Below are positions 11,545 to 27,063 of a stretch of DNA of 42,400 nt, piece by piece. The stretch's first letter is position 1. Each line of letters opens with the position of its first letter. The translations under genes and the position numbers were made by a program. The stretch is taken from positions 1 to 42,400 of the IMG/VR virus record IMGVR_UViG_3300025105_000001; one strand, given 5' to 3'. Below the pieces are notes generated by a model, which was not told the DNA's origin, ran no database searches, and was given only the letters and a program-made list of their open reading frames with translations. Source of the stretch: a virus.

Positions 11545-11944
11545 GGAGGATTACGCGGAATACTACCGGACGGCGCTTCACCGCGCCTACCTCTACCTCC
11601 ACCTCACCGGTTTCGCGGCGCTGCTCGAAGCCCAGGGCTACGATCCCGGACCGGTGCTGGTCGTCCGGGACGATGTCCGCAGGGAGCTGGAGGAGGAGGT
11701 TGAGGATCTGGATTCGTTCCACCAGACCGCGATGGGGCGTCTTGTATGCCTGATCTACGGACGGACGCCCGAGGCGGAAGGCGCGAGGCTCCGGGCCGCG
11801 GCTCGGGCGGCCGTCGATCCGGAGGCGGTGCGTCGGGAGGCCGCGCGGGAGGCCCTGCGCCTGGTTCTCTCATCGTTGTCCGATCACGGCCCGAGAAATG
11901 GCCTGGATGATGAGGGCCGTGGACACGCCCGCAACCGCGGTTAG
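11519..11944 (+). CDS. Helical hypothetical protein
   Basis: 141 aa from GTG 11519; the start is weakly supported. Almost wholly alpha-helical and acidic/basic (AALERAREDYAEYYRTALH, RRELEEEVEDLDSFHQ). The last 25 residues overlap the convergent minus-strand gene by 75 bases and may be readthrough sequence. No family recognised. Confidence 0.45.
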   Translation: MRAALERAREDYAEYYRTALHRAYLYLHLTGFAALLEAQGYDPGPVLVVRDDVRRELEEEVEDLDSFHQTAMGRLVCLIYGRTPEAEGARLRAAARAAVDPEAVRREAAREALRLVLSSLSDHGPRNGLDDEGRGHARNRG

Positions 11945-12091
11945 CGCCAGCGACGGCGCGGATCCCGCTCCCGCGGTCCTGTGGGGCGGGGGCGGCAGGA
12001 AGTACACGATCAGCCCCGCCGCAAGCCCGGACACGAGTCCGCGCAGGAAGTCCAGCCAGAATTCCTGTTCGTAGCTCGGCCACTGATTCAT
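11870..12091 (-). CDS. Two-helix membrane protein, holin candidate
   Basis: 73 aa from ATG 12091. A short amphipathic N terminus (MNQWPSYEQEFWLDFLRG), membrane segment LVSGLAAGLIVYFL, a Pro-rich loop, and second segment LALTAVAGVSTALIIQAI. Size and two hydrophobic helices fit a holin or a small virion membrane protein. It is the last gene of the structural operon and follows a glucosaminidase gene with a four-base overlap, which favours a lysis role. Confidence 0.6.
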   Translation of the reverse strand: MNQWPSYEQEFWLDFLRGLVSGLAAGLIVYFLPPPPHRTAGAGSAPSLALTAVAGVSTALIIQAISRAVIGQR

Positions 12092-12678
12092 CTTGTCAGC
12101 CTCCACAGCAGCAGGGCCAGCGCTCCGGCGGTCAGCAGCATGATCAGCCAGGGCCTCGGCGCCGGCACGATTTCCTCGCCGGTCATGGCCACCTTTATCT
12201 TCCACACCGCTCGCGCGTATTCCTCCGCGTCACCCTCCGTCCACAACCGCGCCACGTCGATCAGCCGGTCCGCCGATCCGTACTTCTCCATCAGGTGAAA
12301 GTACCGCCAGTGCCCGTAGTTGTCGTCGTACATGCCGCCCTGGCCCGAGACGTCGCTCGGGTAGACGTAGCACTGCAGGCGCTCGTAATGGGCATGGACG
12401 CCCTGCTCCCAGGTGGTGAAGGATTGAAATCCGCCATGTCTTGACTTCAGGCCCGCCGGGTTGTGTTGCTCCGGGCAGATCTGCTCGCCGAAGCGCAGGT
12501 ACCCGGTCTCCAGGATCATCTGGGCCGCGGCCAGGTCGGCCCGGAGCCCGAACTTCCGGCCGAAGCGGACGTAGTGTTCTCCCAGGGCCGGGGCCTTTGG
12601 GTTGACTGACCGGATGTAGGCATCGATGCGGTTCGCGGTTATGGGTGATATGCCGATGAAAGAGGTGTTGATGCTCAT
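12088..12678 (-). CDS. Glucosaminidase (GH73-like) with C-terminal membrane anchor
   Basis: 196 aa. Residues about 15-160 form a glucosaminidase/lysozyme-like domain: AAQMILETGYLRFGE with probable catalytic Glu 57, HNPAGLKSRHGGFQSF, and a GHWRYFHLMEKYGS segment. The C terminus is a Pro linker, a hydrophobic helix (WLIMLLTAGALALLLW) and a basic end RLTR. The enzyme would be tail-anchored in a membrane, unusual for a secreted endolysin. It shares this plan with the proteins at 15153, 16456, 18988 and 31465. Confidence 0.8.
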   Translation of the reverse strand: MSINTSFIGISPITANRIDAYIRSVNPKAPALGEHYVRFGRKFGLRADLAAAQMILETGYLRFGEQICPEQHNPAGLKSRHGGFQSFTTWEQGVHAHYERLQCYVYPSDVSGQGGMYDDNYGHWRYFHLMEKYGSADRLIDVARLWTEGDAEEYARAVWKIKVAMTGEEIVPAPRPWLIMLLTAGALALLLWRLTR

Positions 12679-12681
12679 GGC

Positions 12682-13113
12682 TTACGTCGAAATGGCCACC
12701 TGAATCCATTCATAGTTGTCGGTTGAATTCTGCACGCACAGATAGAGCTTGCTTACCTGGCTGGTACCGGTCCGCAGGATGCGAAATTTTCCCAAATATT
12801 GGGCTCCGGCCGAAGGTAGTGAGGGTACCACATCCACGGCTCGTTCGGGTGTGGTTCCGGCTTCCCAGGCCGTTGCGTCGCGACGGAGCACCTGGCCCTC
12901 GGTCGCGGTAGGCAGTACCAGCAAGTTGCCATCAGAAGCACCGAAGGACTTGCCTCCGATACCTGTGGCGTTGGGATGAATCGGACCCGCATAGTTATTG
13001 TGATTGGTTATCTTGGCGTCTACTTCCGTGTCCCGCGCAATTTCGGCCGGTATGTCGGCCTCAGCGAGGTCCTGCCAAGACCAATCAAGCGCCGTACCCT
13101 TTGGGAACGCCAT
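12682..13113 (-). CDS. Fibre-like protein with C-terminal YEW module
   Basis: 143 aa from ATG 13113. The N terminus (FPKGTALDWSWQDLAEADIP) resembles the start of the larger fibre protein at 13231-14310, and the middle has fibre-like NATGIGGKSFGASDGNLLVL. The last 45 residues (KLYLCVQNSTDNYEWIQV) resemble the whole of the small protein at 14312-14491. It is probably a receptor-binding or fibre accessory protein. Confidence 0.6.
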   Translation of the reverse strand: MAFPKGTALDWSWQDLAEADIPAEIARDTEVDAKITNHNNYAGPIHPNATGIGGKSFGASDGNLLVLPTATEGQVLRRDATAWEAGTTPERAVDVVPSLPSAGAQYLGKFRILRTGTSQVSKLYLCVQNSTDNYEWIQVAIST

Positions 13114-13230
13114 GCTGGTTCACTTCTCTCCTACTTAACTGGTAGTGGTGTTCATTTAGGTCCGATCGTGCAGCTGGCAGTTATGACGGCAATTTGGGTC
13201 TTGGTTATGATTTCCCTCTTTTTCACTTAT

Positions 13231-14310
13231 TTACGTTCCTTCTCTCCGCATACCTTTTATAATTACTATTCCTTCTGCCGGCATATCTGCCGATGTTTGA
13301 TATATGGTGATGTACGGCGAGTTTATGTGTGCTACAGCTAGAAACTCGCCGTTGGGCGACCAGGCGACGCCGTAGCCATGGTTCGTTGGCAGGGTGGCGG
13401 GGTCTGCCAGCTTGGTAAACGTGGTGCCCGACCGCTGGTAGATGGTGATGTACGGCGAGTTTACGTGTGCTACGGCCAGAAACTCGCCGTTGGGTGACCA
13501 GGCGACGCCGTAGCCATAGCCCGTTGGCAGGGTGGCGGGGTCTGCCAGCTTAACAGGAGCTGGCCAGGGGAAAATAGGAGTTATTTTAGACGGAAAGCCC
13601 GCTGCACCATGGCTGAAATCCCCTGCCCAGACGCAGGCGACTTCTATTTTGTTCTGTATTTTTGCATTGGTTACGGCCCCGTCTGCGATGGCAGCGGCGG
13701 GGAGAGGAGTGTCGTAGCCGTCTATCTTGTCGGCGTCAAGGCCGGAGCCGGCGCCGTCGTTGCCTGCGTGCCAGGCCAGGTAGCCTTCAATATAGGTCGG
13801 AACTCTCAAAAAGATTCTTCTGTTTACGGGGTTACACTCCCACAACACAATGGCATTAGAAACATCATATAGACCCACCATCTTGTCGGTAGGGTGACCA
13901 AAGAAATATGTCAAACGTCCAGTATTGAAAGTTATTCGCTTTTCACTTCCAGTCGCGTCGAAAGTCAAATCTCCTGTCATCGTGTCTCCAGCCTTATTCA
14001 CCGCCCCGATGTCCGCCGGGGTCAGGACATCTGACCCGCCCGAGGCGTGGGTAGACTTGTAAGCGCTGGGCGGGAAGGTCGCGGGTTTGTCCGGTATGTC
14101 CGCCCACGAAGGCAACTGATCCGTCCGCGAGGTCTTCGCTAGACGATAACTGCCCGATGCGCCGTAGGTCTGAACAAGAGAGGCATGAGTGCCAACAGCT
14201 GACTCCACCTCGGCATCGCGGGCCATGGTGTCGGGAACATCCTGGTCTTGTATCTCGACCCATTGCCAATCGGTTGGGGTGCCCTTGACGAACTTCGGCA
14301 CGGATCCCAC
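13231..14310 (-). CDS. Fibre/receptor-binding protein with two beta-propeller-like repeats
   Basis: 359 aa from GTG 14310. Phage-fibre signatures fill the first two thirds: VPKFVKGTPTDWQWVEI, ASGGSDVLTPADIGAVNKAG, GDTMTGDL, and DADKIDGYDT. The C-terminal third has two near-identical 46-residue units (KLADPATLPTxxGYGVAWSP to SPYITIYQ) encoded by a 138-bp tandem duplication (13310 and 13448). Such units normally come in six or seven to close a WD40-like propeller; here only about 1.9 remain, then a short unrelated tail. The array may have contracted by recombination. Confidence 0.7.
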   Translation of the reverse strand: MGSVPKFVKGTPTDWQWVEIQDQDVPDTMARDAEVESAVGTHASLVQTYGASGSYRLAKTSRTDQLPSWADIPDKPATFPPSAYKSTHASGGSDVLTPADIGAVNKAGDTMTGDLTFDATGSEKRITFNTGRLTYFFGHPTDKMVGLYDVSNAIVLWECNPVNRRIFLRVPTYIEGYLAWHAGNDGAGSGLDADKIDGYDTPLPAAAIADGAVTNAKIQNKIEVACVWAGDFSHGAAGFPSKITPIFPWPAPVKLADPATLPTGYGYGVAWSPNGEFLAVAHVNSPYITIYQRSGTTFTKLADPATLPTNHGYGVAWSPNGEFLAVAHINSPYITIYQTSADMPAEGIVIIKGMRREGT

Positions 14311-14311
14311 C

Positions 14312-14491
14312 TCACGTAGATTCGGAGAGCTGATTCCACTCGTAGTTGCCGAAAGAGTTGACGACGCAGATGTAGGAACGGGCTTTCCCGTTGCTTCGCA
14401 CCAGAATTATCAGGCCTCGGTACTCCGGCCCGGCGGGAGGTAGACTGATATATTCTTCTATTCTTCGTATTGGCGGGTTGACAATCGACAT
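14312..14491 (-). CDS. Small fibre-associated protein (YEW module alone)
   Basis: 59 aa from ATG 14491 (GAGTAAGAG upstream), one base before the next gene. The C-terminal half, LIILVRSNGKARSYICVVNS then NYEWNQLSEST, matches the end of the protein at 12682-13113. Seen as a free-standing module it may be a fibre chaperone or a minor fibre subunit. Confidence 0.6.
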   Translation of the reverse strand: MSIVNPPIRRIEEYISLPPAGPEYRGLIILVRSNGKARSYICVVNSFGNYEWNQLSEST

Positions 14492-14494
14492 CTC

Positions 14495-15148
14495 TTACTC
14501 GTCCCCCACTACACATACCCTCTTGGTCCCGGTGCCACCGTGGATGCCGTAGACGGCCAGCACGTGGTGGTTTGTCCAGTTTATCTCATACACGCCCCCG
14601 TCGGGGTTGAGCCTTATACCCTTGTTGAGCCGGGCTGCCCTGCCGACGCCGAGATATATCACCGTATCAGAGTCGTTGATTATGGCGGCGTACTTCCGGT
14701 AAGGATTCTCATCGAGTATCAGCGTGCTGTTTGTGCCCACATCCACGCTGTCGCATATCGGGAATGCCGTGCTGCGTCTAGCCATCAGCTCGGCAAGATC
14801 GAGGCTGATGTCCCTGGGACTGAGCGGCACTCCCGCCCACTGCGTTATCTCCCCGCTGACCTTGCCGAAGAAGCCGATCCTGTACGTACTGGTGGTGTCG
14901 GGCGCGACGGTAAAGGCCGGGGTGACGTAGAGTCTCGTCGCAGTGTTTGATACGATCTTGCGTACCTGTCCCTTGCCCTTTCCGCCGGTAATCTCGACAA
15001 GCAGGTCCGCCAGCGTGTTGTCCGCCCAATCCTTCGCCGGATCTTCAACGTACAGGGAGGTGTTGGTAGCGGCGGCGATGCCCGTGTCCACGCTTGCTTC
15101 GACCAGGGTGCGGATGATCTGTTCCAGGTTCTTGAGCCCGATCTGCAC
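14495..15148 (-). CDS. Structural protein with a duplicated C-terminal beta domain
   Basis: 217 aa. Residues 1-130 are beta-rich (TSLYVEDPAKDWADNTLADL, GQVRKIVSNTATRLYV). The last 80 residues (RKYAAIINDSDTVIYLGVGR, GGVYEINWTN, YGIHGGTGTKRVCVV) are paralogous to the protein at 18669-18983. This looks like a phage surface or fibre-attachment protein. No enzyme motif. Confidence 0.6.
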   Translation of the reverse strand: MQIGLKNLEQIIRTLVEASVDTGIAAATNTSLYVEDPAKDWADNTLADLLVEITGGKGKGQVRKIVSNTATRLYVTPAFTVAPDTTSTYRIGFFGKVSGEITQWAGVPLSPRDISLDLAELMARRSTAFPICDSVDVGTNSTLILDENPYRKYAAIINDSDTVIYLGVGRAARLNKGIRLNPDGGVYEINWTNHHVLAVYGIHGGTGTKRVCVVGDE

Positions 15149-15152
15149 GGGC

Positions 15153-16454
15153 TCACCTTCTCGTCGCCAGCCAGGCCAGCCCGGCCACGGCCGCCGCCCC
15201 GCTCGCGATCAAGATCCACGGTCTCCGGGCCAGCGTGTTTCCCGTCCCGCTCACCCGCTCCGCCGGTACCAGGGTAAACGGCATCTCGAACGTCTCTTCC
15301 CTGCCGGCGAAGGCGGGCACGGCCCACTTCGGTACCCACCTGTCTTCGGCGGCCACCCACGCGGCCGGCACCAGGCGGCTGCCTCCTCCGACCGCGCCCA
15401 CGCCGGACAGCATCCCCATCACTGACATCAGGTTGTAGAGCAGGATGCTCATCTCGGCCCGGGTGATCGGGTAGTCCGGCAGGAACCTGGCCTGGCCGAA
15501 GTAGTCGGCCTCGGTGAACTCCTGCAGCCAGCCCTGCGTGTAGGCCCACATGACTGCGTTGTAGTGCCAGGCATCCGGCGGCACATCCACGAAGGTCGGC
15601 GCCGGCTGCTCCGTTGCGGCTGGTGCCCCGACGCGGTAGAGGATCATGCAGGTCTGCGCCCGAGTCAGGGGCAGGTCCGGGTACCAGTTGCCGTCCGGGT
15701 ACCCGACCATCCACCCCACGCCGACCACCTTGCATATGCTGTCCTTCGCCCAGTGATTCTGGACGTCCGGCGGCGGCGGCGCCGGGGCGACGCCGGTCAG
15801 CTTCTGCCAGAAGGTGCGGGCCAGCAGGGTCGCCATCTCGGCGCGGGTCAGGGGCCACTCCTGGCGCACGTACCCGCCGGGGTAGCCCCTCATAACTCCC
15901 CGGCTCATCAGCTCCGACACCGCCTGCCCAGTGAACTCGCCCCGCACGCCCGGCGGCGGCAGGCGCCCGTAGCCCAGGATGGCGTTGGCTCGCTCGACCA
16001 CGCGGCTTACCTGGCCGGTTCCCCAGCGGGTTAGGAACTTCGACACCGTGTTCGCCCCGGCCTCGACGTAGCGCAGGGCCAGCTCCACGTGGGCCTTGAC
16101 GCCCTGGCGCTTCGTCATGAAGACGGCCCAGCCTCCCTGCCGGTTCAGCTCCGGCGGCGCGTCCAGGGGGTCGAAGCGGTCCCGATAGTATTTCATTCCG
16201 GCGGGGTTGTTGTACGCCATCCAGTGCGGGTTGTCGTGCTCGCGGTAGAAATAGCACTCCTGGGCGCCCTGGGCGACCAGTATCTCGGGCCGCAGGCCGT
16301 AGGCGCGACCCCAGAGGCAGTAGACGGCGCCCAGCCCCGTGCGGGGGTAAACCCTCTCGCCGGTTACCTCGTTCAGCCAGCCGTCTATCTGCTCCGGGGA
16401 GACCATCTCGTTCGGGTCCGGGCTAAAGGTTAACGGCGTGTTCGGGCCGATCAC
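15153..16454 (-). CDS. Glucosaminidase with three SLH repeats and C-terminal membrane anchor
   Basis: 433 aa from GTG 16454. Residues about 18-165: glucosaminidase-type domain (ILVAQGAQECYFYREHDN with Glu 66; NNPAGMKYY). Residues about 175-360: three S-layer-homology units (RGYPGGYVRQEWPLTRAEMA; MVGYPDGNWYPDLPLTRAQT; FLPDYPITRAEMS). The C terminus has a hydrophobic helix (WILIASGAAAVAGLAWL) ending ATRR. SLH modules bind secondary cell-wall polymer, so this virion or lysis protein could dock on the Gram-positive wall while cutting it. The fusion with a membrane tail is unusual. Confidence 0.85.
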   Translation of the reverse strand: MIGPNTPLTFSPDPNEMVSPEQIDGWLNEVTGERVYPRTGLGAVYCLWGRAYGLRPEILVAQGAQECYFYREHDNPHWMAYNNPAGMKYYRDRFDPLDAPPELNRQGGWAVFMTKRQGVKAHVELALRYVEAGANTVSKFLTRWGTGQVSRVVERANAILGYGRLPPPGVRGEFTGQAVSELMSRGVMRGYPGGYVRQEWPLTRAEMATLLARTFWQKLTGVAPAPPPPDVQNHWAKDSICKVVGVGWMVGYPDGNWYPDLPLTRAQTCMILYRVGAPAATEQPAPTFVDVPPDAWHYNAVMWAYTQGWLQEFTEADYFGQARFLPDYPITRAEMSILLYNLMSVMGMLSGVGAVGGGSRLVPAAWVAAEDRWVPKWAVPAFAGREETFEMPFTLVPAERVSGTGNTLARRPWILIASGAAAVAGLAWLATRR

Positions 16455-16455
16455 T

Positions 16456-17124
16456 TTACCTTCTCCTCGCCAGCGCGTAGATCCCGAGGACCGCGCCCAG
16501 GCCGCCGAGCGCGTAGACTATCGGCGGCACTCCCCGCGGCACCTGCCTGCCGTCGGGCGCCGGCGGCGGCGCGCCGTCGGGCGGAACCGGCTGCGGCACG
16601 GGCGGCTCGACGACCTCGGTGATGAACCGGGCGTACCTATCCGGCGTCACGCCCTGGCCGTCGCCGTCGCCGTAGGCCCAGAAGAAGTACCCGCTTTCGA
16701 TCTTCAGCCCGAAGCTGCCGAAGATGTGGCTCGTCCTCGGGGCGTAGGGGTTAGGAATGATGAATTTGGGCAGGTCCTCGGAGAGCACCCGCAGGCCGCG
16801 CGGGTACTGGAATAGGTTCTTGTCCGCCCAGAAGTCGTGGGGAAAATACATTCCGGCCTGCCTCAGGAAGGCCGAGAAGCCTTCCTGGCCGATGTTGGCC
16901 GGCGGCAGGCCCCACGGCGCGTCGAGCCAGTAGAAAGGGTAGCCGCCATAGTAGGCCCACACCTGGCCGTCCCTGATGCCGCGGGCCACCTCGCCGGGGG
17001 TGTGTTTTGAGACCTCCCCTCCCCCGTTGATGCGGACCTTCTCCGGCGTGCTCGCGGCCAGCTCCTGGAGCCAGTCGTCGGGCGGCTTCCACAGGGCATA
17101 GTTGGTGCGGATGACGGTGCCCAC
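16456..17124 (-). CDS. Aromatic-rich protein with C-terminal membrane anchor
   Basis: 222 aa; GTG 17124 is preferred because GAGGAGGAG lies six bases upstream, GTG 17130 being possible. The 150-residue N-terminal domain is very rich in Trp, Tyr, Phe and Gly (GGYPFYWLDAPWGLPPANIG; YFFWAYGDGDGQG). Then a Pro-rich linker (PVPQPVPPDGAPPPAPDG), membrane helix VYALGGLGAVLGIYAL and tail ARRR. The N-terminal domain may bind or hydrolyse cell-wall glycan, but I do not recognise it. Confidence 0.6.
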   Translation of the reverse strand: MGTVIRTNYALWKPPDDWLQELAASTPEKVRINGGGEVSKHTPGEVARGIRDGQVWAYYGGYPFYWLDAPWGLPPANIGQEGFSAFLRQAGMYFPHDFWADKNLFQYPRGLRVLSEDLPKFIIPNPYAPRTSHIFGSFGLKIESGYFFWAYGDGDGQGVTPDRYARFITEVVEPPVPQPVPPDGAPPPAPDGRQVPRGVPPIVYALGGLGAVLGIYALARRR

Positions 17125-17126
17125 GG

Positions 17127-17387
17127 TCACTCCTCCTCGCCGCTCTTTAGCCCCTCCGCGACGTTCTTGGCGCCGGACCACAGTCCCGTGGCGGCCAGGC
17201 CCGTGACAACGCCCAGCCAGGCAGCCTTCGCGTAGTCGCCGGGGGCCAGGTAGACGAAGCCGATAATCAGGCCCAGGGTCAGGGCCAGCAGCGGGGAAAA
17301 CTTCCGGTTGAGACCCATCCGCTTGGCCAGCTCGACAAGGGCGATTATGACGGGAACGGCCGCGATTCCGTAGACTTCGGGGTTCAT
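17127..17387 (-). CDS. Small two-helix membrane protein, holin-like
   Basis: 86 aa from ATG 17387. Segments VYGIAAVPVIIALVELAKRM, FSPLLALTLGLIIGFVYLA and AAWLGVVTGLAATGLW are hydrophobic; the C terminus is acidic and charged. The order resembles phage holin families. Its place inside the structural operon, between a propeller protein and a membrane-anchored protein, would also fit a virion membrane component. Confidence 0.6.
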   Translation of the reverse strand: MNPEVYGIAAVPVIIALVELAKRMGLNRKFSPLLALTLGLIIGFVYLAPGDYAKAAWLGVVTGLAATGLWSGAKNVAEGLKSGEEE

Positions 17388-17439
17388 GGTATCACTCCCG
17401 ACTCTGGTTCAATTTTCATCGGACGGGTAAAGGATCACA

Positions 17440-18561
17440 CTACTGAACTGTTCCTGATAACACACCTAACACTAAGGGGTTAATTCGTCTCAGATGGCGT
17501 GGCGGAGCTATTGCGCCAGAAACACTAGGGAAAGCATACAGGTAGCGGTCTGTGCTGGTGACATACACTGTACCGTCGCTGCCAATAGCCGCCGAGCCAT
17601 AAATCGGATTACCGGTAGTATAAGACCACTTTACGGTGCCGTTAGGATTGACACAATAAAACTTGTAATCACGGCTGCCGACGTAGATAAATCCGTTGGC
17701 GCAAACCACAGGTGCAGTTCTAATGGCATCGCTGGCTACCGGTTGACTCCATTTTACGGTGCCGTTGGGGTCAACTGCGTATAGATAACCATCGTCAGTA
17801 CCGACATAGATGGTTCCGTCGCTAGCCACACAAGGGGACGATCTGCTGCCAGCCGCCCCCAGGGGAACGTTCCAAAGCGCGTCGCCAGTATCTTTTGCTA
17901 AAGCGTAGAGTTCAGACCCCGCCACATATACCACGTTACCGACTACAGCAGGAGACGCATAAAATATCTCTCCAGCTAAGTACCTGCTCCAGCGTAGATT
18001 TCCAAATATGTCTAGCGAGTAGACGTAGTACGAATACCGGCAGAAGTACACATTGTCCGCATCATCGAGAGCCGGAGATGACTCTACAGCATCTCCTGTA
18101 TTGTATCTCCATCTGAGAGAGCCATCGGGATTAATTGCGTACAGATAGTTGTCTCGACTGCCAACCAATATCGTTCCGTCACTGGCCACGTTGGGCGATG
18201 ATGGCACATAGGACCCGGTGCTGTATTTCCATTTTCGAGTGCCATCAGGATATGCCGCATACAGACTGTAGTAGCCGCCTGCATAAATCACCCCGTTCTC
18301 ATCAACAGCAGGAAAAGAAGTATCTTGATAATCGTGATAGGCGCGCCATTTCCGGGTACCATCAGGATTGACTGCATGCCAATAACGAGAAGTGTCGATC
18401 ACATAAATGGTGCCATCTGCACCAATGGCAGGCGAGCAACGCATACTGTAGGCGTGGTATTTCCAGCGTACTGTGCCATCAGTATTGGTCGGTACCCCGG
18501 CCAAACCACGGCCATATTTGTCTCGTTTGAATTTAGGCCAAGGCGTTGCACCGAGTCCCAT
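17440..18561 (-). CDS. PQQ-like beta-propeller surface protein
   Basis: 373 aa from ATG 18561. About eight blades of roughly 40 residues, each with a pattern like SPAIGADGTIYV...LYAINPDGTxKW (for example SSPNVASDGTILVGSRDNYL and CVASDGTIYVGTDDGYLYA). No quinone-binding enzyme context. In this block a propeller is most likely a receptor-binding or capsid-decorating protein. G+C of this gene looks lower than its neighbours, hinting at a separate origin. Confidence 0.8.
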   Translation of the reverse strand: MGLGATPWPKFKRDKYGRGLAGVPTNTDGTVRWKYHAYSMRCSPAIGADGTIYVIDTSRYWHAVNPDGTRKWRAYHDYQDTSFPAVDENGVIYAGGYYSLYAAYPDGTRKWKYSTGSYVPSSPNVASDGTILVGSRDNYLYAINPDGSLRWRYNTGDAVESSPALDDADNVYFCRYSYYVYSLDIFGNLRWSRYLAGEIFYASPAVVGNVVYVAGSELYALAKDTGDALWNVPLGAAGSRSSPCVASDGTIYVGTDDGYLYAVDPNGTVKWSQPVASDAIRTAPVVCANGFIYVGSRDYKFYCVNPNGTVKWSYTTGNPIYGSAAIGSDGTVYVTSTDRYLYAFPSVSGAIAPPRHLRRINPLVLGVLSGTVQ

Positions 18562-18668: not shown

Positions 18669-18983
18669 CTACCACGCCTCTACCACGGTCAGCCTCTTGG
18701 TTCCAGTTCCTCCGTGTATCGCCCATACGGCGGCCGTTATGGGGTTATTCCACGTTATTTCATAGAACCCTCCGTTTTCCGCAAGCCGCACTCCGGCCCC
18801 CACCTGGGCCGTCGCGGCGAAGGCCAGGTAGATCGGCGTATCGCTGTCGTTTATGAAAATGGCGTACTTTCGGTCCGCCCTGGCCCCCAGAACCTGCGTG
18901 CTGGTGGTGCCCACGTCCACCCCGGTGTTGAGGTAATTCTTCGGTTTCAGGAACTCCCACATATTCTTCAGGCTAGACTGCAT
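18669..18983 (-). CDS. Small beta protein paralogous to the 14495-15148 C-terminal domain
   Basis: 104 aa from ATG 18983. RKYAIFINDSDTPIYLAF, GGFYEITWNN and AIHGGTGTKRLTVVE match the C-terminal domain of the 217-residue protein upstream of 15148. Probably a minor structural or fibre-attachment subunit. Confidence 0.6.
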   Translation of the reverse strand: MQSSLKNMWEFLKPKNYLNTGVDVGTTSTQVLGARADRKYAIFINDSDTPIYLAFAATAQVGAGVRLAENGGFYEITWNNPITAAVWAIHGGTGTKRLTVVEAW

Positions 18984-18987
18984 CTCC

Positions 18988-19221
18988 CTATCTCCTGCCC
19001 GGTTTCGTCGCCAGCAGGTAGGCCGTCGCGGCCATCAGTCCCGCCGCGCCCAGCGTGATTCCCATCTGGCGCACCGCGATGGTCACCGTCTCGGCCCTGG
19101 TGATGGGGTTGTCCGGCTTAAACGTCCCGTCCGGGTACCCCTTGACCAGGCCCAGGTAGGTCGCCAGAGTGATGTACGTGCTCGCCCAGTGGGTCTTCGG
19201 TACGTCGGTGTATAGCGCCAT
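18988..19221 (-). CDS. Single SLH module with membrane anchor
   Basis: 77 aa from ATG 19221. One S-layer-homology unit (THWASTYITLATYLGLVKGY, FKPDNPITRAETVTIAVR) followed by hydrophobic helix LGAAGLMAATAYLLA and tail TKPGRR. It is a minimal wall-binding protein anchored in a membrane, the smallest member of the tail-anchored set in this window. Confidence 0.75.
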   Translation of the reverse strand: MALYTDVPKTHWASTYITLATYLGLVKGYPDGTFKPDNPITRAETVTIAVRQMGITLGAAGLMAATAYLLATKPGRR

Positions 19222-19407
19222 TTATTTCCCCTCCTCTATCGGGCAGTTCCGGCCGCCGATCTGTTTGCCCGATATTAGCTGGCACACGATGGGCTTTCCC
19301 CATGAGCCCGGCGGCGTCAAAATCTTTCTCCGGTTCAGAACGAGGCCGTTCCCACTACCTTCGAGAACAGCAATCACTCCGTGCGTCGGGCATTTCAGCA
19401 CCTTCAC
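19222..19407 (-). CDS. Small Cys-containing protein
   Basis: 61 aa from ATG 19407, overlapping the stop of the spike gene by four bases and ending next to the SLH gene start. Cys at CPTHG, VCQL and NCPIEE could bind metal. Function unknown; the tight packing supports it as a real gene. Confidence 0.55.
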   Translation of the reverse strand: MKVLKCPTHGVIAVLEGSGNGLVLNRRKILTPPGSWGKPIVCQLISGKQIGGRNCPIEEGK

Positions 19408-20336
19408 AATCTGATGCCCCCCATCTTCTCGCTGATGTCGGACAGGGCCATGACGGCCGTCCGGGTCAAGGGGACGTAAAAGTCGGTAAACAGGTAATCG
19501 GCCAGCAGCGCCACATTCACCCGTACGGTAACCATGGCGTCGGTGGACGAGCCGTTGTTGACCACAAACTTGACCGTGTTTCGCTTGACGCCGTAGCGCC
19601 CCAGGTCCACCTCTAGCGGATCGGTGAGAATCAGTTTTTCAGGAGTAACCAGAACGTCGTCGATATAGGCTTCTACCTCAATACGAGAATCATAATAATC
19701 TGATGTGATTAGAAACGACTTCGAGCTTACGCACACAAAGCCCGCCGGTATGTTCAGCACCAGTTCCGTGCTTGCGCCCCAGGGGCAATTGATCGGCTGA
19801 CTGTACGATGTGAACCTCGTGTCGCCTGCCCTGCCCGCGGCCTGCAGAATCTTAATAATTGCCTCCGGGTCGAGCAGTGGTGCCGCGTCTCCGGGTACTC
19901 CCGGCGGCAGGGCGGCCGGTACTTCCCCGGGAACCGGAGGCGGCGGGGTCTCAGGAGGCGCAGGAGCCGGCGGAGCGACTTCCGGAGGCGGCACAGGCGG
20001 CGTCGGATACCACCACGGCGGCGCAGCCTCAGGCGGCGGCGCGGGTGCCGGAGGCGACGGGGCCTTGGGAACTTCTGAAGGGGCAGGCGCAGGCGTCGGT
20101 GCGGGAGCCGGCGCTTCTGGTTCCACGTAGTACCTCGGTACCGGCGGCCCGGGCTGATACGGCATGATGGGGGTCTCAAGTGGCAACTCCAGGTCCACTG
20201 GTTGCTCCAGTACCGTCGGCACCTGCTCCTGCTGCGCCGCCTGTTGCGCCGGGACCTCTTGCCCGACCCTGAATCCCACCCGCCTCTTCTCCCACGGCGG
20301 GGTCGTATTAACCAGCGCCGCTATCAGCCGCCTCAC
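19404..20336 (-). CDS. Spike-like protein with Pro/Ala-rich stalk
   Basis: 310 aa. Residues about 60-155 are an extended Pro/Ala/Glu stalk (PAPAPTPAPAPSEVPKAPSP and similar). Residues about 170-310 form a beta-rich domain (TELVLNIPAGFVCVSSKSFL, RIEVEAYIDDVLVTPEKL, NTVKFVVNNGSSTDAM). A globular C-terminal head on a proline stalk, coded right after a candidate capsid protein, fits a vertex spike or minor coat protein. The stalk-plus-head layout is visible; the role is inferred. Confidence 0.6.
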   Translation of the reverse strand: MRRLIAALVNTTPPWEKRRVGFRVGQEVPAQQAAQQEQVPTVLEQPVDLELPLETPIMPYQPGPPVPRYYVEPEAPAPAPTPAPAPSEVPKAPSPPAPAPPPEAAPPWWYPTPPVPPPEVAPPAPAPPETPPPPVPGEVPAALPPGVPGDAAPLLDPEAIIKILQAAGRAGDTRFTSYSQPINCPWGASTELVLNIPAGFVCVSSKSFLITSDYYDSRIEVEAYIDDVLVTPEKLILTDPLEVDLGRYGVKRNTVKFVVNNGSSTDAMVTVRVNVALLADYLFTDFYVPLTRTAVMALSDISEKMGGIRL

Positions 20337-21251
20337 TTACAGGATGCCTCCTTTGGTCTTGTCCCAGGTCTCGCCCGGGGTCCTCTCCCTGTCCAGCAGC
20401 CCGAACCTGACGCGAAGGACGTTGGTCATCACGCAGCGCCTGACCTCATACCGCATGGCCCACCCGGCGACGTTCTGGCTGGCGATGGCCTTGATCCTGA
20501 ACTCCCTCAGGGCCGGGACCCAGCACTGGATCGGGTCGTCCAGCGACAGGGGGTAGGTCGGTATCTCGATGTAGTCGGCGTCCCGGTCGCGGTCGATCCG
20601 GATCCGGACGTTCTGGGCCACCGTGCCGGGGGCGGCGGCCAGGCCGGTCAGCACCAGGAACTCGCCGGGATTCGGGTTGACCACGCCCACCGTGACTTCG
20701 GTGTTCGCCGCCAGGTCCAGGACGGCCGTGCGGGCTACCTCTCCCACGGTGTTGTACTCGCGCTCCAGGAGGTACGAGATCGGGACGGGCAGCACGCCCT
20801 TCTGCACCGACGCCGCCAGGTTCAGGGCCGAGGCGATGCGGGACTCCTCCTGGTCCAGCCGCCGGCCCAGCATGATCTTCTCAGCGACGGACGGCTCGTA
20901 GACCCACACGCCGAACCTGACGCGATAGTCGCTCACACTGCCGACGCCGTACAGGTTCAGGTAGAGCAGCGCCGTCCCGAGCAGCTCCCACCGGGCCGAC
21001 TTGAGGTCAGGCAGCCCGCCGGCGTTGATCTTGTAGTTGTCGGCGTCGGCTCGGACCCGCACTTCGACGTTCGCGCTGGTCTCCACCGCCAGGTTGACGA
21101 GCCGAAGGAATTTCGGTTCGTATCTTCTTAAGTCCAAAATCGGCGGGCTGATTTCGGAGCCCGCCGATACAGACACGACTCGTGCGTCGGGCAGCAGCTC
21201 CGGGTAGTAGCGCGCCCGCGCGATGGTCGCTTCGTTTATCATGACTGGCAA
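20337..21251 (-). CDS. Candidate capsid protein 2 (beta-rich)
   Basis: 304 aa from ATG 21251. Strands dominate (FLRLVNLAVETSANVEVRVR, YRVRFGVWVYEPSV, EVTVGVVNPNPGEFLVL, NVRIRIDRDRDADYIEIPTY, AGWAMRYEVRRCVM), with one helix near residues 120-150. No HK97 signature, portal or enzyme motif is visible. Length falls in the range of jelly-roll capsid proteins of tailless viruses. Together with the 356-residue protein it is one of the two largest beta proteins in the block. Fold assignment needs structure prediction. Confidence 0.45.
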   Translation of the reverse strand: MPVMINEATIARARYYPELLPDARVVSVSAGSEISPPILDLRRYEPKFLRLVNLAVETSANVEVRVRADADNYKINAGGLPDLKSARWELLGTALLYLNLYGVGSVSDYRVRFGVWVYEPSVAEKIMLGRRLDQEESRIASALNLAASVQKGVLPVPISYLLEREYNTVGEVARTAVLDLAANTEVTVGVVNPNPGEFLVLTGLAAAPGTVAQNVRIRIDRDRDADYIEIPTYPLSLDDPIQCWVPALREFRIKAIASQNVAGWAMRYEVRRCVMTNVLRVRFGLLDRERTPGETWDKTKGGIL

Positions 21252-21273
21252 GCCTCCAGTCGGTTTTGTTTAT

Positions 21274-21619: not shown

Positions 21620-21635
21620 GCCGCCACCTTCTTTC

Positions 21636-22706
21636 CTACGCCATCTCGATCAGAACACCATTGAGGGCCACGACGATCTGGTTGGCCGCAATCGACGTCC
21701 CGTTGTCCTGCACCGCCACGTACCCCTTGTCCTGCCAGATGAGGTACGGCTTGTCGAACTTCGGGATGGCGAAGTACACGGGCCAGTCCGCGGGGTAAAG
21801 CGGGTACGCCTTTCCGAAGTGCCTGAGGTTCACGTACTGTTCGGTCGGCCACCGCTTCTTGGGACGATCCTTGCCTGCGATGTTAAGGAACGTCTCCTTG
21901 AGGTTGGCCGGTGCCCTCACCCCGAGCCCCTTGACCACCAGGGCCTTGTTCTCGATGTCGAACGGGAAGTACATGTTTTCGGCTCTAGTAGCCACGTCGC
22001 GGGTGTCGTACCGGAACTGGTAGGGCGTGTTGGGAGTCGTGGCGTTTGCGTTCCGGGCGTAACGCACCAGGGGGTTGATCTTGGGCATGGCCTGGTCCAC
22101 GCCGCCGGGAAGCTGGGGCCAGTTTTCCCACGTCACGGCTATGGACGGCTTCTCCACGACCAGGGTCCGGTTGGTGCGGTCGTCCCGGATCTCCAGCCGT
22201 CCGCCGATGGTGCCGAACAGGCGGGAGAGTTCCTGGGCCGGGTACCGGTAGCCCCAGATGCGGATGCGGAAGTTGGCGGTGACGCCGCCCTCGCCCGCGC
22301 GGCACTCGATCTTCAGGTTCTTGTTGTATTTCGGGCAGATGCCTTCAAAGAGCGGGGCTCCCTTGACCGCATAGACCAGAGGCTGGCCGAACGCCAGGAT
22401 CTGACCGTTGTGCATCTGGGTCGCTTCCGCGGTGAACAGCAGGGTGTCGGTTCCGGGAATGTTGATATACTCTTCGTAGCTCTTTTCGTCCAGGATCAGG
22501 TTGATGTCTTCCAGCTTCTCAGCAACGCCGCCACCGGTCACGGGCGCGAAGACTTCCATGAAGACGACCTCTGCGACCTCGTGGGAGTCCAGCTCGGCAT
22601 TTCCCTCCTGGGCCGTGGGCTTCCAGACCTCGCCCGCGGCCAGACTTCCGGTATGCTTGAAATCCCCCAGAAGTTGCAACTCATACTGTTCCCACTGGTA
22701 GGGCAT
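21636..22706 (-). CDS. Candidate major capsid protein 1 (beta-rich)
   Basis: 356 aa from ATG 22706 (CGGGAGGAATCC upstream). The largest protein of the central block, strongly beta (EVVFMEVFAPVTGG, DTLLFTAEATQMHNGQILAF, ANFRIRIWGYRYP, RTLVVEKPSIAVTWE, YFAIPKFDKPYLIW, GYVAVQDNGTSIAANQIVVA). There is no tail-phage capsid signature I recognise. About 350 residues with two strand-dense halves suits a double-jelly-roll capsid protein, though an unfamiliar HK97-fold protein is not excluded by eye. Its neighbours are small membrane proteins rather than portal/protease genes. Confidence 0.5.
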   Translation of the reverse strand: MPYQWEQYELQLLGDFKHTGSLAAGEVWKPTAQEGNAELDSHEVAEVVFMEVFAPVTGGGVAEKLEDINLILDEKSYEEYINIPGTDTLLFTAEATQMHNGQILAFGQPLVYAVKGAPLFEGICPKYNKNLKIECRAGEGGVTANFRIRIWGYRYPAQELSRLFGTIGGRLEIRDDRTNRTLVVEKPSIAVTWENWPQLPGGVDQAMPKINPLVRYARNANATTPNTPYQFRYDTRDVATRAENMYFPFDIENKALVVKGLGVRAPANLKETFLNIAGKDRPKKRWPTEQYVNLRHFGKAYPLYPADWPVYFAIPKFDKPYLIWQDKGYVAVQDNGTSIAANQIVVALNGVLIEMA

Positions 22707-22753
22707 TTTGGATTCCTCCCGATTCTTTGTTTTGCCTCGGGACTACCGAAGCT

Positions 22754-23092
22754 CTAGAGTTCCACCACGCTGGAAAGGGGCGCGAACACGGGCCGCTGCT
22801 CGGGCAGGAGCGGCGGCGTCACCCTCTGGCCTGCTCTGCCGGTGGTCTTTACCCCACCCGACAGGATCGGCCCGACGTAGGCGGCGCCGAAGTAGGCGGC
22901 CGCGCCGTCCAGGGCGCCTTCGCCTACCGCGGCCATGTTGCCGCGCAGGCTCATGCCGGCCATGTAGCCCAGGGCTCCGAGCGCCGTGGCGATCAGAGCG
23001 TCGAAGAGCGGGATGTCGATCTTGGCGCGCACCAGGGAGCTCATCGCCCCGACCCCGGCTGCTCCGGCCATCTTGTAGGCATTGACTGCCAT
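22754..23092 (-). CDS. Gly/Ala-rich small membrane protein of the capsid block
   Basis: 112 aa from ATG 23092 with GGGAGGTG upstream. Gly/Ala-rich hydrophobic stretches ALIATALGALGYMAGMSL and GALDGAAAYFGAAYVGPIL, then a polar Pro-rich tail. It is encoded just before the 356-residue candidate capsid protein. It may be an internal-membrane protein of the virion. Confidence 0.55.
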   Translation of the reverse strand: MAVNAYKMAGAAGVGAMSSLVRAKIDIPLFDALIATALGALGYMAGMSLRGNMAAVGEGALDGAAAYFGAAYVGPILSGGVKTTGRAGQRVTPPLLPEQRPVFAPLSSVVEL

Positions 23093-23111
23093 CGAATGCA
23101 CCTCCCTGCCT

Positions 23112-23738
23112 TCATGGTAGATTCCGCCGCCGTGCGGCGTCAAGGCGACCCATCAGCAGCACCATCTTCAGCCGGCTATCTCCCTTGGACGGTACTGCAA
23201 TTTCCCTGACCGGCAGCACCACGGTATCGTTGAACCGAAAGAAGGGTACGTAGGGAAGCTGTTCCGGGATCGCCTTATAGGACGGTAGTCCCGGGGTGGT
23301 CTCTAGCACGAGCCCGTCCACCGTGACCCAGGCGTGCCCGTAGTTGTCGAAAAGTCCTATGGTCACGAAGACTCGGGTATCGGGAAGCCGCCGCCGGAGG
23401 ATTGATGCGAGCAGGAAGGAGGCGTCTTCGCAGTCGCCGATTCTCGTGACCAACGTCTCGGCGGGAAAGGACCAGTAGTCGTATACCCGATATGCCCTTC
23501 TGGTCCGGCCCCGAAAGGCCCGGAAGTAATGCTCATCCTCAACATCCGGCGAGCCTTCCGGATACTGGATGTACTTCGTTACCCACCACCAGGCGGTCGC
23601 CACAAACTCTCTTTCGCCCGCCGGAAGCTGCGTCTCTATCCGCGCCACACCCGGTACATTCGGCGTCACAAATTGTCGAATGTCCCACTCCTCGCCCGGC
23701 AACCTCTTTTTGACCACGTAAAAAGTCGTCAGGGTCAT
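23112..23738 (-). CDS. Transglutaminase-like cysteine protein
   Basis: 208 aa from ATG 23738, overlapping its upstream neighbour by four bases. The triad region of the transglutaminase/papain-like fold is visible: RIGDCEDASFLLASIL with Cys 103, NYGHAWVTVDGLVLETT with His 135 and an acidic residue after it. The family includes proteases and acyl-transfer enzymes. In a virion block it could process a structural protein or cut a wall peptide cross-bridge. No signal peptide. Confidence 0.75.
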   Translation of the reverse strand: MTLTTFYVVKKRLPGEEWDIRQFVTPNVPGVARIETQLPAGEREFVATAWWWVTKYIQYPEGSPDVEDEHYFRAFRGRTRRAYRVYDYWSFPAETLVTRIGDCEDASFLLASILRRRLPDTRVFVTIGLFDNYGHAWVTVDGLVLETTPGLPSYKAIPEQLPYVPFFRFNDTVVLPVREIAVPSKGDSRLKMVLLMGRLDAARRRNLP

Positions 23739-24235
23739 CGCCGCTTCAGCCTCTCCAGCCACTCTTCGACGGGCAGGTGACCCGTCTTCCGGAGGGTGAA
23801 AATCAGCCAGGCGACGCCGACCGTGGCGGTGATGAGGGCTATCTTGTCCACCAGGGACGGGTGCCCTCCGTTGACGGGAGTGACCCGCAGGAAGACCCAC
23901 GCGACGACCAGCAGCGCGATGACAAAGGCTATGGCCAGCAGCGCCGCGACGACCGCCGGTGCCCAGGGTGCGCCCTTTTGCCAGCGGATGTACCAGGCCG
24001 CGTTCTCCTCGTCGACGAACACCCGCCTGGCCTCCCGCGGCCAGGGCCGCACGCCCCGGCTGGCAAGCTCTTGCTCAAGCTGGTTTGCCGCCGTGAGGAA
24101 CAGCGGGAAGCGGACACGGAAGTTGACGCGCAGCTCGGCCAGCCCGCCTTCGGGTATGTGGGCGGTCTCGTCGTCGATTATGCGGCTCAGCTCGTGCCAT
24201 CCCCCGGTGGAGACGGTTTCGTAGATGTACGCCAT
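23735..24235 (-). CDS. Two-helix membrane protein
   Basis: 166 aa from ATG 24235. A soluble N-terminal domain of about 90 residues (GGLAELRVNFRVRFPLFLTA), then membrane helices AVVAALLAIAFVIALLVVAW and KIALITATVGVAWLIFTL, and a basic tail ending LKRR. A candidate virion membrane protein. Confidence 0.6.
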   Translation of the reverse strand: MAYIYETVSTGGWHELSRIIDDETAHIPEGGLAELRVNFRVRFPLFLTAANQLEQELASRGVRPWPREARRVFVDEENAAWYIRWQKGAPWAPAVVAALLAIAFVIALLVVAWVFLRVTPVNGGHPSLVDKIALITATVGVAWLIFTLRKTGHLPVEEWLERLKRR

Positions 24236-24239
24236 GCTT

Positions 24240-24764
24240 TCACCCGACGTAGTAGCGGCTCCAGTTGAACCTGGTCTTCGGCGCGCCGACCGCGGCCGCA
24301 ACTTCCTGGTGTATGATGGCGTAGCGGTCGTAGACTTCAAGCACTTCCACGTCGGCCCCGGTCTGCGGGTCCTTGGCGTAGATGTCCCACGCGCAGGTGA
24401 AGGCATCGCCATCCTTCCATACGCCCTTCTTTCCGTCGGCCCAGTTGGTCCGGCGGAAGGTGAAGGTAGCCGACTGGCCGGCCTCAATCCTCTTCGACTG
24501 ACCGGGCCAGGTGCCGACCCGCTCCTGGGCTCTCATCAGCCAGATGGAGCCTTCGATATAGAAGTTGCCGGGGCCGTTGCCGACGTTGGTGATGCTCAGC
24601 TCGGCAGTCACCGGATCTCCCGGCTTCGGCTTGGCCCGGTAGCCCTCCGCGACTTCCCTATAAACCGGCGCGCCGATGAGTAGCCTGAAAGAAGAGCCTG
24701 CGATGTGGATGCGCGGCCGGACGAACACCGGGTATCTGGCCGCCGTCTTCAGCAGGGTTAGCAA
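24240..24764 (-). CDS. Beta-sandwich structural protein with NWSRYYVG tail
   Basis: 174 aa from TTG 24764 (GGGAGGTGA upstream). Residues about 45-140 look like an immunoglobulin-like sandwich (GDPVTAELSITNVGNGPGNF, QSATFTFRRTNW, AFTCAWDIYA). The last residues, KTRFNWSRYYVG, are nearly the same as the end of the next protein (KIRLNWSRYYVG), and the coding DNA is near-identical over about 40 bp. The shared tail may be a docking or sorting tag. Confidence 0.6.
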   Translation of the reverse strand: MLTLLKTAARYPVFVRPRIHIAGSSFRLLIGAPVYREVAEGYRAKPKPGDPVTAELSITNVGNGPGNFYIEGSIWLMRAQERVGTWPGQSKRIEAGQSATFTFRRTNWADGKKGVWKDGDAFTCAWDIYAKDPQTGADVEVLEVYDRYAIIHQEVAAAVGAPKTRFNWSRYYVG

Positions 24765-24776
24765 AGTCTCACCTCC

Positions 24777-25184
24777 CTAGCCGACGTAGTAGCGGCTCCA
24801 GTTGAGCCTGATCTTGGGCCGGCCGACTGCTTCCGGAGGCCTTTCAGGCGGAACTTCCTTCGGGGGTAACGGGACCTCCGGAAGTTCTTTAGGCAGAACT
24901 TCTTTCGGGGGTAACGGGACCTCCGGAAGTTCTTTAGGCGGAATCTTCGGCAGCTCCTCCGGCGGAACTTCCTCTGGCGGAATCTCCTTCTCCGGAACCT
25001 CCTCCGGAGGCTTCTCCCACGGGGGTTTTTCTTCCGCCCGCGCCCACTCCGGCTTAAAGATCAGAATCATCGCGATCAGCCCGAGGGAACCGGCGGCCAG
25101 CCCATATAGGGGCCACTTGCGAACCTCGGTACCCTTCTTCTCCTTTACGCCTTCGGGTGGCTTTTCGAGAGCCAAGTTATCCAC
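24777..25184 (-). CDS. Membrane-anchored Pro/Glu-repeat protein with NWSRYYVG tail
   Basis: 135 aa from GTG 25184. A short charged N terminus, one membrane helix (WPLYGLAAGSLGLIAMILIF), then about 75 residues of tandem acidic proline repeats (PPEEVPEKEIPPEEVPPEEL; PEVPLPPKEVLPKEL twice), ending KIRLNWSRYYVG. The plan, anchor plus stiff spacer plus tag, suggests a spacer linking a membrane to the capsid shell. That role is inference. Confidence 0.6.
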   Translation of the reverse strand: MDNLALEKPPEGVKEKKGTEVRKWPLYGLAAGSLGLIAMILIFKPEWARAEEKPPWEKPPEEVPEKEIPPEEVPPEELPKIPPKELPEVPLPPKEVLPKELPEVPLPPKEVPPERPPEAVGRPKIRLNWSRYYVG

Positions 25185-25536
25185 CCGCCATTTCCAGAAG
25201 TCTCTTCCACACCGCGGCCACCTGGCCCCGCAGCCACAGGTGGTTGCGGGCCAGAATGTCCCTCTTGTCCGGATTCAGGCGCTCCATCGTTCTCGCCAAA
25301 ATCGTATCAAAGTCGTCTGGCGAGAAGCAACCGACATAGCGCCGCAGGGTTCCGGTCACTTGCTGGGGCTGGAAGCGGCGGTACAGCTCCCGCTCCAGGA
25401 CCGGCACGAGATTCTGCCCGACCAGAGCCTCGGCGTCGGCTCCGTTGATATGCTCGGCGAGGTGGTGGGCAAGGATCGTGAACACCCGCTGCCGCGCGAA
25501 AGCCACCGCGAACCTGCCCAGGGCATCAGAGGTCAA
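25177..25536 (-). CDS. Helical hypothetical protein
   Basis: 119 aa from TTG 25536, overlapping both neighbours. Wholly helical, containing VFTILAHHLAEHINGADAEA and FDTILARTMERLNPDKRDIL, with the ending WKRLLEMAGG. No family recognised. Confidence 0.5.
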   Translation of the reverse strand: MTSDALGRFAVAFARQRVFTILAHHLAEHINGADAEALVGQNLVPVLERELYRRFQPQQVTGTLRRYVGCFSPDDFDTILARTMERLNPDKRDILARNHLWLRGQVAAVWKRLLEMAGG

Positions 25537-26479
25537 CGGTCATTCCCCCTCCCGGCCGCGACGGGTAGGGTTGCGGGGGTGGCGGCTGGGCCTGCGGCTG
25601 CGCGTGGGGCGGCGAAGGGGTCGGCGGCGGAGGTGGCGCGCTCCGGCTGGCTATCGCTTCCGCCACCGCGGCCACGAGCTCAGTCAGAGGCCCCCTTAGG
25701 GCCTCCAGCCCATTACGAAGGTTTTCCATTCTTTCTCTTTCCAGACGCAATTGCTCCCGACGGAATTCCCTGTCCCGCTCATCCTCCAGGATGAGGCGCA
25801 GGACCTCGGTCTTGATCCCCCCAACCAGGGCCTCCCGCCGCATGTCGTCGCCGTCCCGCCGGGCGCGGAAGTATTCGGCAAGCTGCTCGGCCAGCGAGAG
25901 ACTTTCCTTAACTGCTTCCAGCGGGCTGGCGGGCTTCTGCTGTTGAACCAGGGCTCCGGTTACCTGGTTTCGCAACACGTCGGCCAGTGCCTGCTGGATG
26001 GCAGCCGTAATGGGGTCGACAGCGGGCCGCCTCGCCTCCTCCGTCAGCCGGCGCACCTCGCTCAGGCTGCTCTGGACACTCTGGATCAGGGCCTCCATTT
26101 GGGCCTTCACGGCTTCCGCCCTGGCCACCTGAACCTCCTCCCTTGCCTTCTCTATCTCCTGGCTCATCTCGCGCCGCATGTCTCTCTCCTCCCGGGCTAT
26201 GGACCGGAAGGTTTCCGCGGCTTCCTTATGTATGCCGGTAATGGTACCCAGATCCAGACCGGCCTCCTTTAGATGCTTCAACCCCTCCAGAGGGCTCGGC
26301 TCCGACGTGGAAATCAGATCTTTTAACATGCTTACCGCCGACTTGGCCTTGTGGGCATCCACCAACTCGCCGACGCCCTCGCTGACGATTCGCATGAGGT
26401 TGCGGACCGGCACTTCCTGGTGTCCGTTCCCGGCCTGCTGCTCCACCAGGCTACCCCTCAGGACACTTGCGACCCCCAT
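25526..26479 (-). CDS. Long coiled-coil protein (scaffold candidate)
   Basis: 317 aa from ATG 26479. Residues about 70-265 are charged helices with coiled-coil character (EERDMRREMSQEIEKAREEV; FRREQLRLERERMENLRNGL), and the last 40 residues are Pro/Gln-rich. Being early in the structural operon and rod-like, it could be an assembly scaffold or a length determinant. It overlaps its upstream neighbour by 22 bases. Confidence 0.6.
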   Translation of the reverse strand: MGVASVLRGSLVEQQAGNGHQEVPVRNLMRIVSEGVGELVDAHKAKSAVSMLKDLISTSEPSPLEGLKHLKEAGLDLGTITGIHKEAAETFRSIAREERDMRREMSQEIEKAREEVQVARAEAVKAQMEALIQSVQSSLSEVRRLTEEARRPAVDPITAAIQQALADVLRNQVTGALVQQQKPASPLEAVKESLSLAEQLAEYFRARRDGDDMRREALVGGIKTEVLRLILEDERDREFRREQLRLERERMENLRNGLEALRGPLTELVAAVAEAIASRSAPPPPPTPSPPHAQPQAQPPPPQPYPSRPGGGMTVDL

Positions 26480-27036
26480 TCCATCTCCTCCTTGATTTTC
26501 AACCTTTCGATAGATTTTGCCAGCAGAATGTCGAACCCGAGCTCGCTGGCGTGCTCGGCGTAGAAGGTAAAGATGCACTCCTCGACCCAGCGAGCGAAGC
26601 TCTGCGGCGTATCGTCGTAGTCGTCCGGCCACTTCAGCCGGGCCAGGTCGAACAGGATCCAGAGGGCGGGATCGAGGTCCACATCCACCAGTTTCATCCT
26701 GACCCTGGTCGTGGACGCCGTGCGAGCCTCCTGCCCGCCGCGGCCGGCGTCTTTCTTCTTCACGTAGCCCAGCCGGACGGCGTTCCGCATGTCCGGCCCC
26801 CTGACCAGCATGATTCCCCTCCGGTCAAACAACCCCTCGACCATCCCCATCGCCTGCATGCCCCCATGGTCGGTCCGGATGTGGGAAAACAGGGCGCGAT
26901 AACCTTCGCCGTCCCCCGACTCCGGAAAACTCTGGCCGCACTGGCAGCGCCATACCATCTCTTGTGGCCCGTCGGGGGCGTCGGGGTCCGGGCGATGGAC
27001 CTCTTTCTCGGGATGGCGCTCCCTCTTCTTGGCCAT
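26458..27036 (-). CDS. C2H2-like zinc-finger protein, first gene of structural operon
   Basis: 192 aa from ATG 27036 (AAGGAGGGAGGG upstream). Residues about 30-57 hold CQCGQSF...ALFSHIRTDHGG, a CxC-x-HxxxxH zinc finger. The rest is mixed, with an aromatic acidic region (LDPALWILFDLARLKWPDDY). As the first gene after the operator array it could be an autoregulator of the structural operon, or a virion DNA-binding protein. Confidence 0.6.
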   Translation of the reverse strand: MAKKRERHPEKEVHRPDPDAPDGPQEMVWRCQCGQSFPESGDGEGYRALFSHIRTDHGGMQAMGMVEGLFDRRGIMLVRGPDMRNAVRLGYVKKKDAGRGGQEARTASTTRVRMKLVDVDLDPALWILFDLARLKWPDDYDDTPQSFARWVEECIFTFYAEHASELGFDILLAKSIERLKIKEEMEWGSQVS

Positions 27037-27063
27037 ACCCTCCCTCCTTATTCCAGTGTTGGT

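Follow-up and report, generated by a model that had tools for sequence, protein, structure and literature searches.

A late gene block without recognizable tailed-phage morphogenesis genes in a viral record that may represent a tailless, membrane-containing phage of Firmicutes

Among described viruses, those closest in organization to the locus reported here are the Halopanivirales, represented by the Thermus phages P23-77 and IN93 and the Haloarcula virus SH1. Their late operons have no terminase, portal or tail genes and encode many small membrane proteins, one of them directly before the two capsid genes, together with a proline-rich membrane protein and a membrane-anchored lysin. A block of 25 minus-strand genes (27036 to 11870, about 15 kb) with comparable features is found in the IMG/VR record IMGVR_UViG_3300025105_000001, which was analysed over its whole length of 42,400 bases (the window). 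PRD1 and PM2 (Tectiliviricetes) resemble the block in the large fraction of late-operon products that are membrane proteins and in having virion wall hydrolases, and the tailless Salisaeta icosahedral phage SSIP-1 has a similar genome size (43.8 kb) and an integrase gene. The differences are also considerable. The Halopanivirales have their own packaging ATPase, capsid genes encoding 173-185 and 232-291 amino acids (aa) compared with 356 and 301 aa here, and genomes of 17-31 kb, and their sequence and profile similarity to the record was not above decoys. PRD1 and PM2 have the packaging ATPase P9 and a single double-jelly-roll capsid protein, and SSIP-1 has its own virion ATPase, gp40, and no profile similarity to the record. 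We suggest that the block serves as the late operon of a phage whose host is a Firmicute with SLH proteins, and that the virion is probably tailless and membrane-containing, a reading that is unproven and to which we give about an even chance.

Genes were called with a codon and ribosome-binding-site model. The plus-strand early arm extends from 27333 to the right end and from 2 to 11944, broken at 30914-32360 by a lysis cassette on the minus strand. The late block lies between plus-strand genes, with the arms divergent at 27037-27332 and convergent near 11.9 kb. The single minus-strand block of about 25 genes in the original prediction, which was made from the letters alone, is therefore confirmed. 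As for the promoter that it gave to the block, there is a sigma-70-like match of 9/12 at 27093-27064, but such sites were no more common in the scan than in shuffles. A repeat search of the divergent region (27037-27332) also found about seven copies of CACTCAAGG at 27065-27190, partly 34-36 nt apart, which are candidate operators for a regulator or iterons of an origin.

The called genes of the whole record, with a few very small open reading frames (ORFs) left out, were scanned against Pfam and PHROGs. No family of terminase, portal, protease, HK97 capsid, tape measure, sheath, baseplate or tail tube was found in the block or in the rest of the 42.4-kb record, and a six-frame search of the record with the large terminase (TerL) family phrog_2 found none, with controls positive in 13 of 14 cases. 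Neither the set of large terminase, portal and HK97 capsid nor the tail genes (tape measure, tube, baseplate) by which Caudoviricetes are recognized were thus detected in the record. This agrees with the original prediction, in which no terminase, portal, prohead protease, tape measure, sheath or baseplate had been recognized in the block, and extends it to the remaining sequence. The negatives hold for this record, which may be a fragment. As a check of sensitivity, PHROGs recognized the portal (E 9e-11) and the major head protein (E 2e-14) of a divergent uncultured tailed phage, the IMG/VR record IMGVR_UViG_3300031753_000006 (G415), but did not recognize its presumed terminase pieces, and therefore a terminase on its own, if highly divergent, could have escaped detection in our record. 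An argument from size is independent of the family searches. The longest block protein has 433 aa, compared with at least 1132 aa for the longest in the late modules of four tailed phages, and only three called proteins of the record exceed 400 aa (the DinG helicase, the SLH-glucosaminidase and the sliding clamp), so that a TerL, portal or tape measure of the usual kind could not be accommodated.

If the record is a fragment, it may belong to a larger genome of a tailed phage in which the terminase, portal, capsid and tail genes lie elsewhere; the block would then be the second of its late operons and encode fibres, wall-active and lysis proteins together with orphans. We regard this as possible, though less likely than not. 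In the tailed Thermus phage P74-26, genes for propeller, fibre and holin form a minus-strand block of their own that lies opposite the terminase block, the fibre matches in our block include tail-fibre families, and IMG/VR classes the record as linear because end repeats were not found. However, the fibre and lysis genes here have no neighbouring gene for a tape measure, tail tube, neck or baseplate, and no terminase is present where the operon starts, at an intergenic region of its own.

Membrane proteins are abundant in the block. With a transmembrane (TM) segment defined as a 19-residue Kyte-Doolittle (KD) segment of at least 1.6, nine of the 25 block proteins (36%) have one; in a comparison set of nine hand-picked phages, the late modules of P23-77, SSIP-1, SH1, PM2 and PRD1 had a share of 25-58%, and those of GVE2, lambda, A118 and P74-26 one of 8-19%. 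The share in the block is above that of all four tailed phages examined, which argues against an incomplete tailed phage. Among the small membrane proteins, estimated earlier at six or more, one is a holin (17127-17387), and the nine include at least this holin; the tailed sets likewise include theirs. A small Gly/Ala-rich protein of membrane type (22754-23092; 112 aa; KD 1.58, just below the threshold) lies directly before the two large genes of the block, in the same way as in VP15-VP16-VP17 of P23-77 and VP12-VP7-VP4 of SH1. According to a review, VP12 is the major membrane protein and its gene, together with those of the capsid proteins and the ATPase, is among the most conserved in the SH1 group (PMC5332951). 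The membrane richness and the gene order amount to an analogy with the tailless phages with an internal membrane and not to homology.

Several points weigh against a tailless virion. The comparison of membrane proteins depends on the nine chosen phages, a holin is among the membrane proteins of the block, and tailed phages, P74-26 for example, likewise carry fibres, propellers, holin and lysin. The two candidate capsid proteins also gave no fold. The putative major capsid protein (21636-22706; 356 aa) is an orphan and probably beta-rich, and the second candidate, described before as a 304-aa protein from a TTG at 21251, more likely starts at the ATG at 21242, giving 301 aa (20337-21242). AlphaFold2, run on single sequences without relatives, reached a mean pLDDT (predicted local distance difference test) of 28.6 and 31.9, respectively, and strands dominate only in these untrustworthy models. 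The structure prediction proposed for 21636-22706 and 20337-21251 gave no jelly-roll fold. By composition and hydrophobic-moment statistics the two proteins could not be told apart from HK97 capsid proteins, and secondary-structure statistics failed to separate HK97 from jelly-roll proteins. Two large proteins are thus present as originally described, but their beta-rich capsid identity was not confirmed. A weak internal duplication was detected in the 301-aa protein only, in a shuffling test (p about 0.02 to 0.05). The idea of one repeated beta domain common to the 356-, 301- and 310-aa proteins failed such tests, except weakly inside the 301-aa protein.

There was no sequence link to any tailless phage. 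In profile comparisons with hhalign against P23-77, IN93, SH1 and SSIP-1, the best true matches were not above reversed decoys. A tblastn search of 50,697 annotated phage records with the proteins of the capsid region and their neighbours gave no credible match, the sole hit being a chance-level stretch of 50 residues of the 356-aa protein. Searches of viral contigs gave no relatives of the 356-, 301- or 208-aa protein, and searches of contigs of species-representative genomes gave none of the 356-aa protein. In 398 genomes of the phylum reached via a Clostridia genome there were two matches, both to ordinary chromosomal genes, and two smaller classes gave no relatives either. Joined block proteins had no match in plasmids (991 aa) or in 398 genomes (913 aa). 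Scans at the DNA level for the motifs NWSRYYVG and RIWGYRYP yielded chance matches only among viral contigs. At the sensitivity available, the proteins of the capsid region are orphans.

The packaging of the DNA is an obstacle to the original comparison, in which it was not considered. The FtsK/HerA-type ATPase family (PF01580) was absent from all six frames of the record and was positive in all 14 control genomes. Walker A patterns in the six frames were confined to the DinG helicase, the Sak4-like gene, and two genes and one uncalled frame that look like chance. In every tailless double-stranded DNA reference phage compared (P23-77, IN93, SSIP-1, SH1, PM2 and PRD1) a packaging or virion ATPase is annotated, and the packaging-ATPase gene expected of Halopanivirales and of PRD1 and PM2 (a gene adjoining the capsid gene) was not found here. 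At face value, this speaks against placing the record in the PRD1, PM2 or P23-77 groups; alternatively, it points to an incomplete record. Either the record is incomplete or packaging differs in this virus. Because the record has no packaging ATPase, a tailless membrane-containing virion leaves the packaging of the DNA unexplained, and the simplest answer is that the ATPase is encoded on an unsequenced part.

The early arm again recalls a tailed phage. By family matches, the plus-strand genes at 2-11275 encode a DinG-type helicase, a Cas4-like exonuclease, a Sak4-like ATPase, a Gp157-like protein, an ERCC4 nuclease, a MazG-like protein and a uracil-DNA glycosylase (UDG), and the module is collinear with that of G415, which carries portal and HK97-type head genes. 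DinG (26% identity), ERCC4 (30%) and UDG (34%), together with the gene after DinG and the Cas4-like, Sak4 and MazG-like genes, stand in the same order in both records, but G415 has no match to the 356-aa protein. In G415, the UDG domain is N-terminal within an ORF that also holds a part resembling a DNA-polymerase exonuclease. Replication modules move between virus types. The collinearity therefore does not decide the virion type, yet an incomplete tailed phage is a serious rival because of it.

Whether the record is complete bears on all of these readings. At its right end (42385-42400) there is a strong Shine-Dalgarno sequence, AAGGAGG, whose spacing fits the ORF that begins at the left end (1-30), and a random cut in the early arm would leave this motif within the final 18 nt in 1.0% of cases. 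This suggests that the ends are adjacent in a circle, which would argue against a fragment of a tailed phage; the arms would then meet in one divergent and one convergent region. However, the joined ORF would need a CTG or an internal GTG start, and no sequence overlap between the record ends was found. The linear class, the absence of a packaging gene and the presence of a sliding clamp (a DNA polymerase III beta homologue, 37710-38975, plus strand) in a record without a DNA polymerase also stand against completeness. If the genome is a complete circle, the virion may have no dedicated packaging motor and be pleomorphic, vesicle-like or non-icosahedral, or have a shell assembled around the DNA. 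The absence of the ATPase from six frames and the motif at the right end are in favour of this, and virus groups without a packaging ATPase exist among those with jelly-roll proteins, namely the Odin group and the single-stranded DNA phage FLiP, although these have small genomes or single-stranded DNA and not 42 kb (PMC5894146). We consider such a virion unlikely. A complete circular 42-kb double-stranded DNA phage of a Firmicute, with a tailless membrane virion and an undescribed capsid pair loaded without a dedicated packaging ATPase, appears slightly less likely still. The originally proposed tailless membrane virus on the model of PRD1, PM2 or P23-77 is thus supported by the lack of tailed-phage genes, the membrane richness and the order at the two large genes, and not by an ATPase, a fold or a sequence link, and its early genes are collinear with those of a tailed phage.

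If the virion is tailless and contains a membrane, the 356- and 301-aa proteins would form the shell. The small upstream membrane protein, a protein of 166 aa with two strong TM segments (23735-24235; KD 3.19 and 1.87) and a protein of 135 aa with one TM segment followed by a Pro/Glu-rich stalk (24777-25184) would lie in the virion membrane. Vertex spikes may be composed of a candidate spike protein of 310 aa with a Pro-rich stalk and a C-terminal, probable beta domain (19404-20336), the fibres and a propeller. Attachment to secondary wall polymers would fall to the SLH domains and the opening of the peptidoglycan for entry to the tail-anchored wall hydrolases, and holin and lysins would serve for exit.

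The wall-active proteins agree with the predicted SLH, fibre and membrane-anchored hydrolase genes. By family matches, the protein at 15153-16454 (433 aa) combines a glucosaminidase-like domain with three SLH repeats and a C-terminal TM segment and is a candidate for a wall-binding and wall-cutting virion or lysis protein, that at 18988-19221 (77 aa) has a single SLH domain, and that at 12088-12678 (196 aa) is a glucosaminidase with a C-terminal TM segment. A C-terminal hydrophobic segment with a basic tail closes these three proteins, the orphan at 16456-17124 (222 aa) and an amidase at 31465, which is in favour of a membrane-containing virion. The prophage endolysin LysBT1 of a thermophilic Brevibacillus likewise joins a wall hydrolase to SLH for binding to the cell surface, but it is an amidase and not a glucosaminidase, and no membrane anchor is mentioned in its abstract (PMC12285257).

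The other recognized families of the block are peripheral as well. They comprise a PQQ/BamB-type beta-propeller (17440-18561; 373 aa), the holin mentioned above (86 aa; phrog_1299, E 1.4e-25), a fibre with C-terminal WD40-like repeats (13231-14310; 359 aa) and a transglutaminase-like fold with a GDCED motif (23112-23738; 208 aa), the last a weak match (E 0.002 to 0.016) under curated cut-offs. A fibre-like protein at 12682-13113 (143 aa) resembles the former fibre at its N-terminus, and another lies at 14495-15148 (217 aa). The C-terminal domain of the latter (14495-14842) is duplicated with 47% identity in the 104-aa protein at 18669-18983; both copies hold INDSDTxIYL, and a search for relatives of the domain found none. 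The final gene (11870-12205) encodes a two-TM, holin-like protein. In comparison, the upstream half of the block (19.4-27 kb), the expected place of capsid genes, is almost wholly without families. It begins with a protein of 192 aa with a CxC/HxxxxH zinc-finger-like N-terminus (26458-27036; no family), followed by a coiled-coil protein of 317 aa with a Pro-rich tail (25526-26479; no family above noise) and a helical protein of 119 aa (25177-25536; no family). A probable beta protein of 174 aa (24240-24764) shares the C-terminal motif NWSRYYVG with the adjacent, otherwise unlike 135-aa stalk protein, and the motif is possibly a tag for sorting or assembly.

In the early arm, the lysis cassette at 30914-32360 is a second one on the opposite strand, with two Amidase_3 proteins, one of which has a C-terminal TM segment. 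It also encodes a coiled-coil/TM protein of 75 aa, possibly the source of the XhlA (hemolysin)-like match of the pooled scan. Three plus-strand genes show further similarities. The C-terminal third of the product of 36658-37509 is like ORF227/ORF223 of archaeal betalipothrixviruses (E 5e-4), which says nothing on the virion; 35527-36381 has weak similarity to a sigma factor (SigZ-like) and could encode a transcription factor for the late genes; and the orphan 8286-9062, with a Gly-rich C-terminal loop, has a very weak and unproven match to the Csm4 (RAMP) profile (E 0.09).

The host is likely a Firmicute, as judged from sequence matches. Over 75 bases, the SLH gene is 83% identical to a genome whose phylum is also that of a Clostridia metagenome-assembled genome (MAG), the best relatives of the amidase are also in that phylum, to which the search was confined, and the genes use strong AGGAGG ribosome-binding sites. 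The Firmicute host of the original prediction is therefore plausible. A search for the host with CRISPR spacers covered one 20-kb stretch, and its matches were mainly to SLH and amidase or were short and of low significance.

Most described bacterial viruses are tailed, and the tailless membrane-containing phages form only a few groups. If the reading is true, a Firmicute virus with a 15-kb virion operon unlike those of catalogued phages would add a new lineage of virions. Should the genome also be complete, it would question the need of a double-stranded DNA virus of this size for its own packaging motor. The joining of SLH domains to membrane-anchored wall enzymes suggests a concrete way in which a tailless particle could hold and open a Gram-positive wall.

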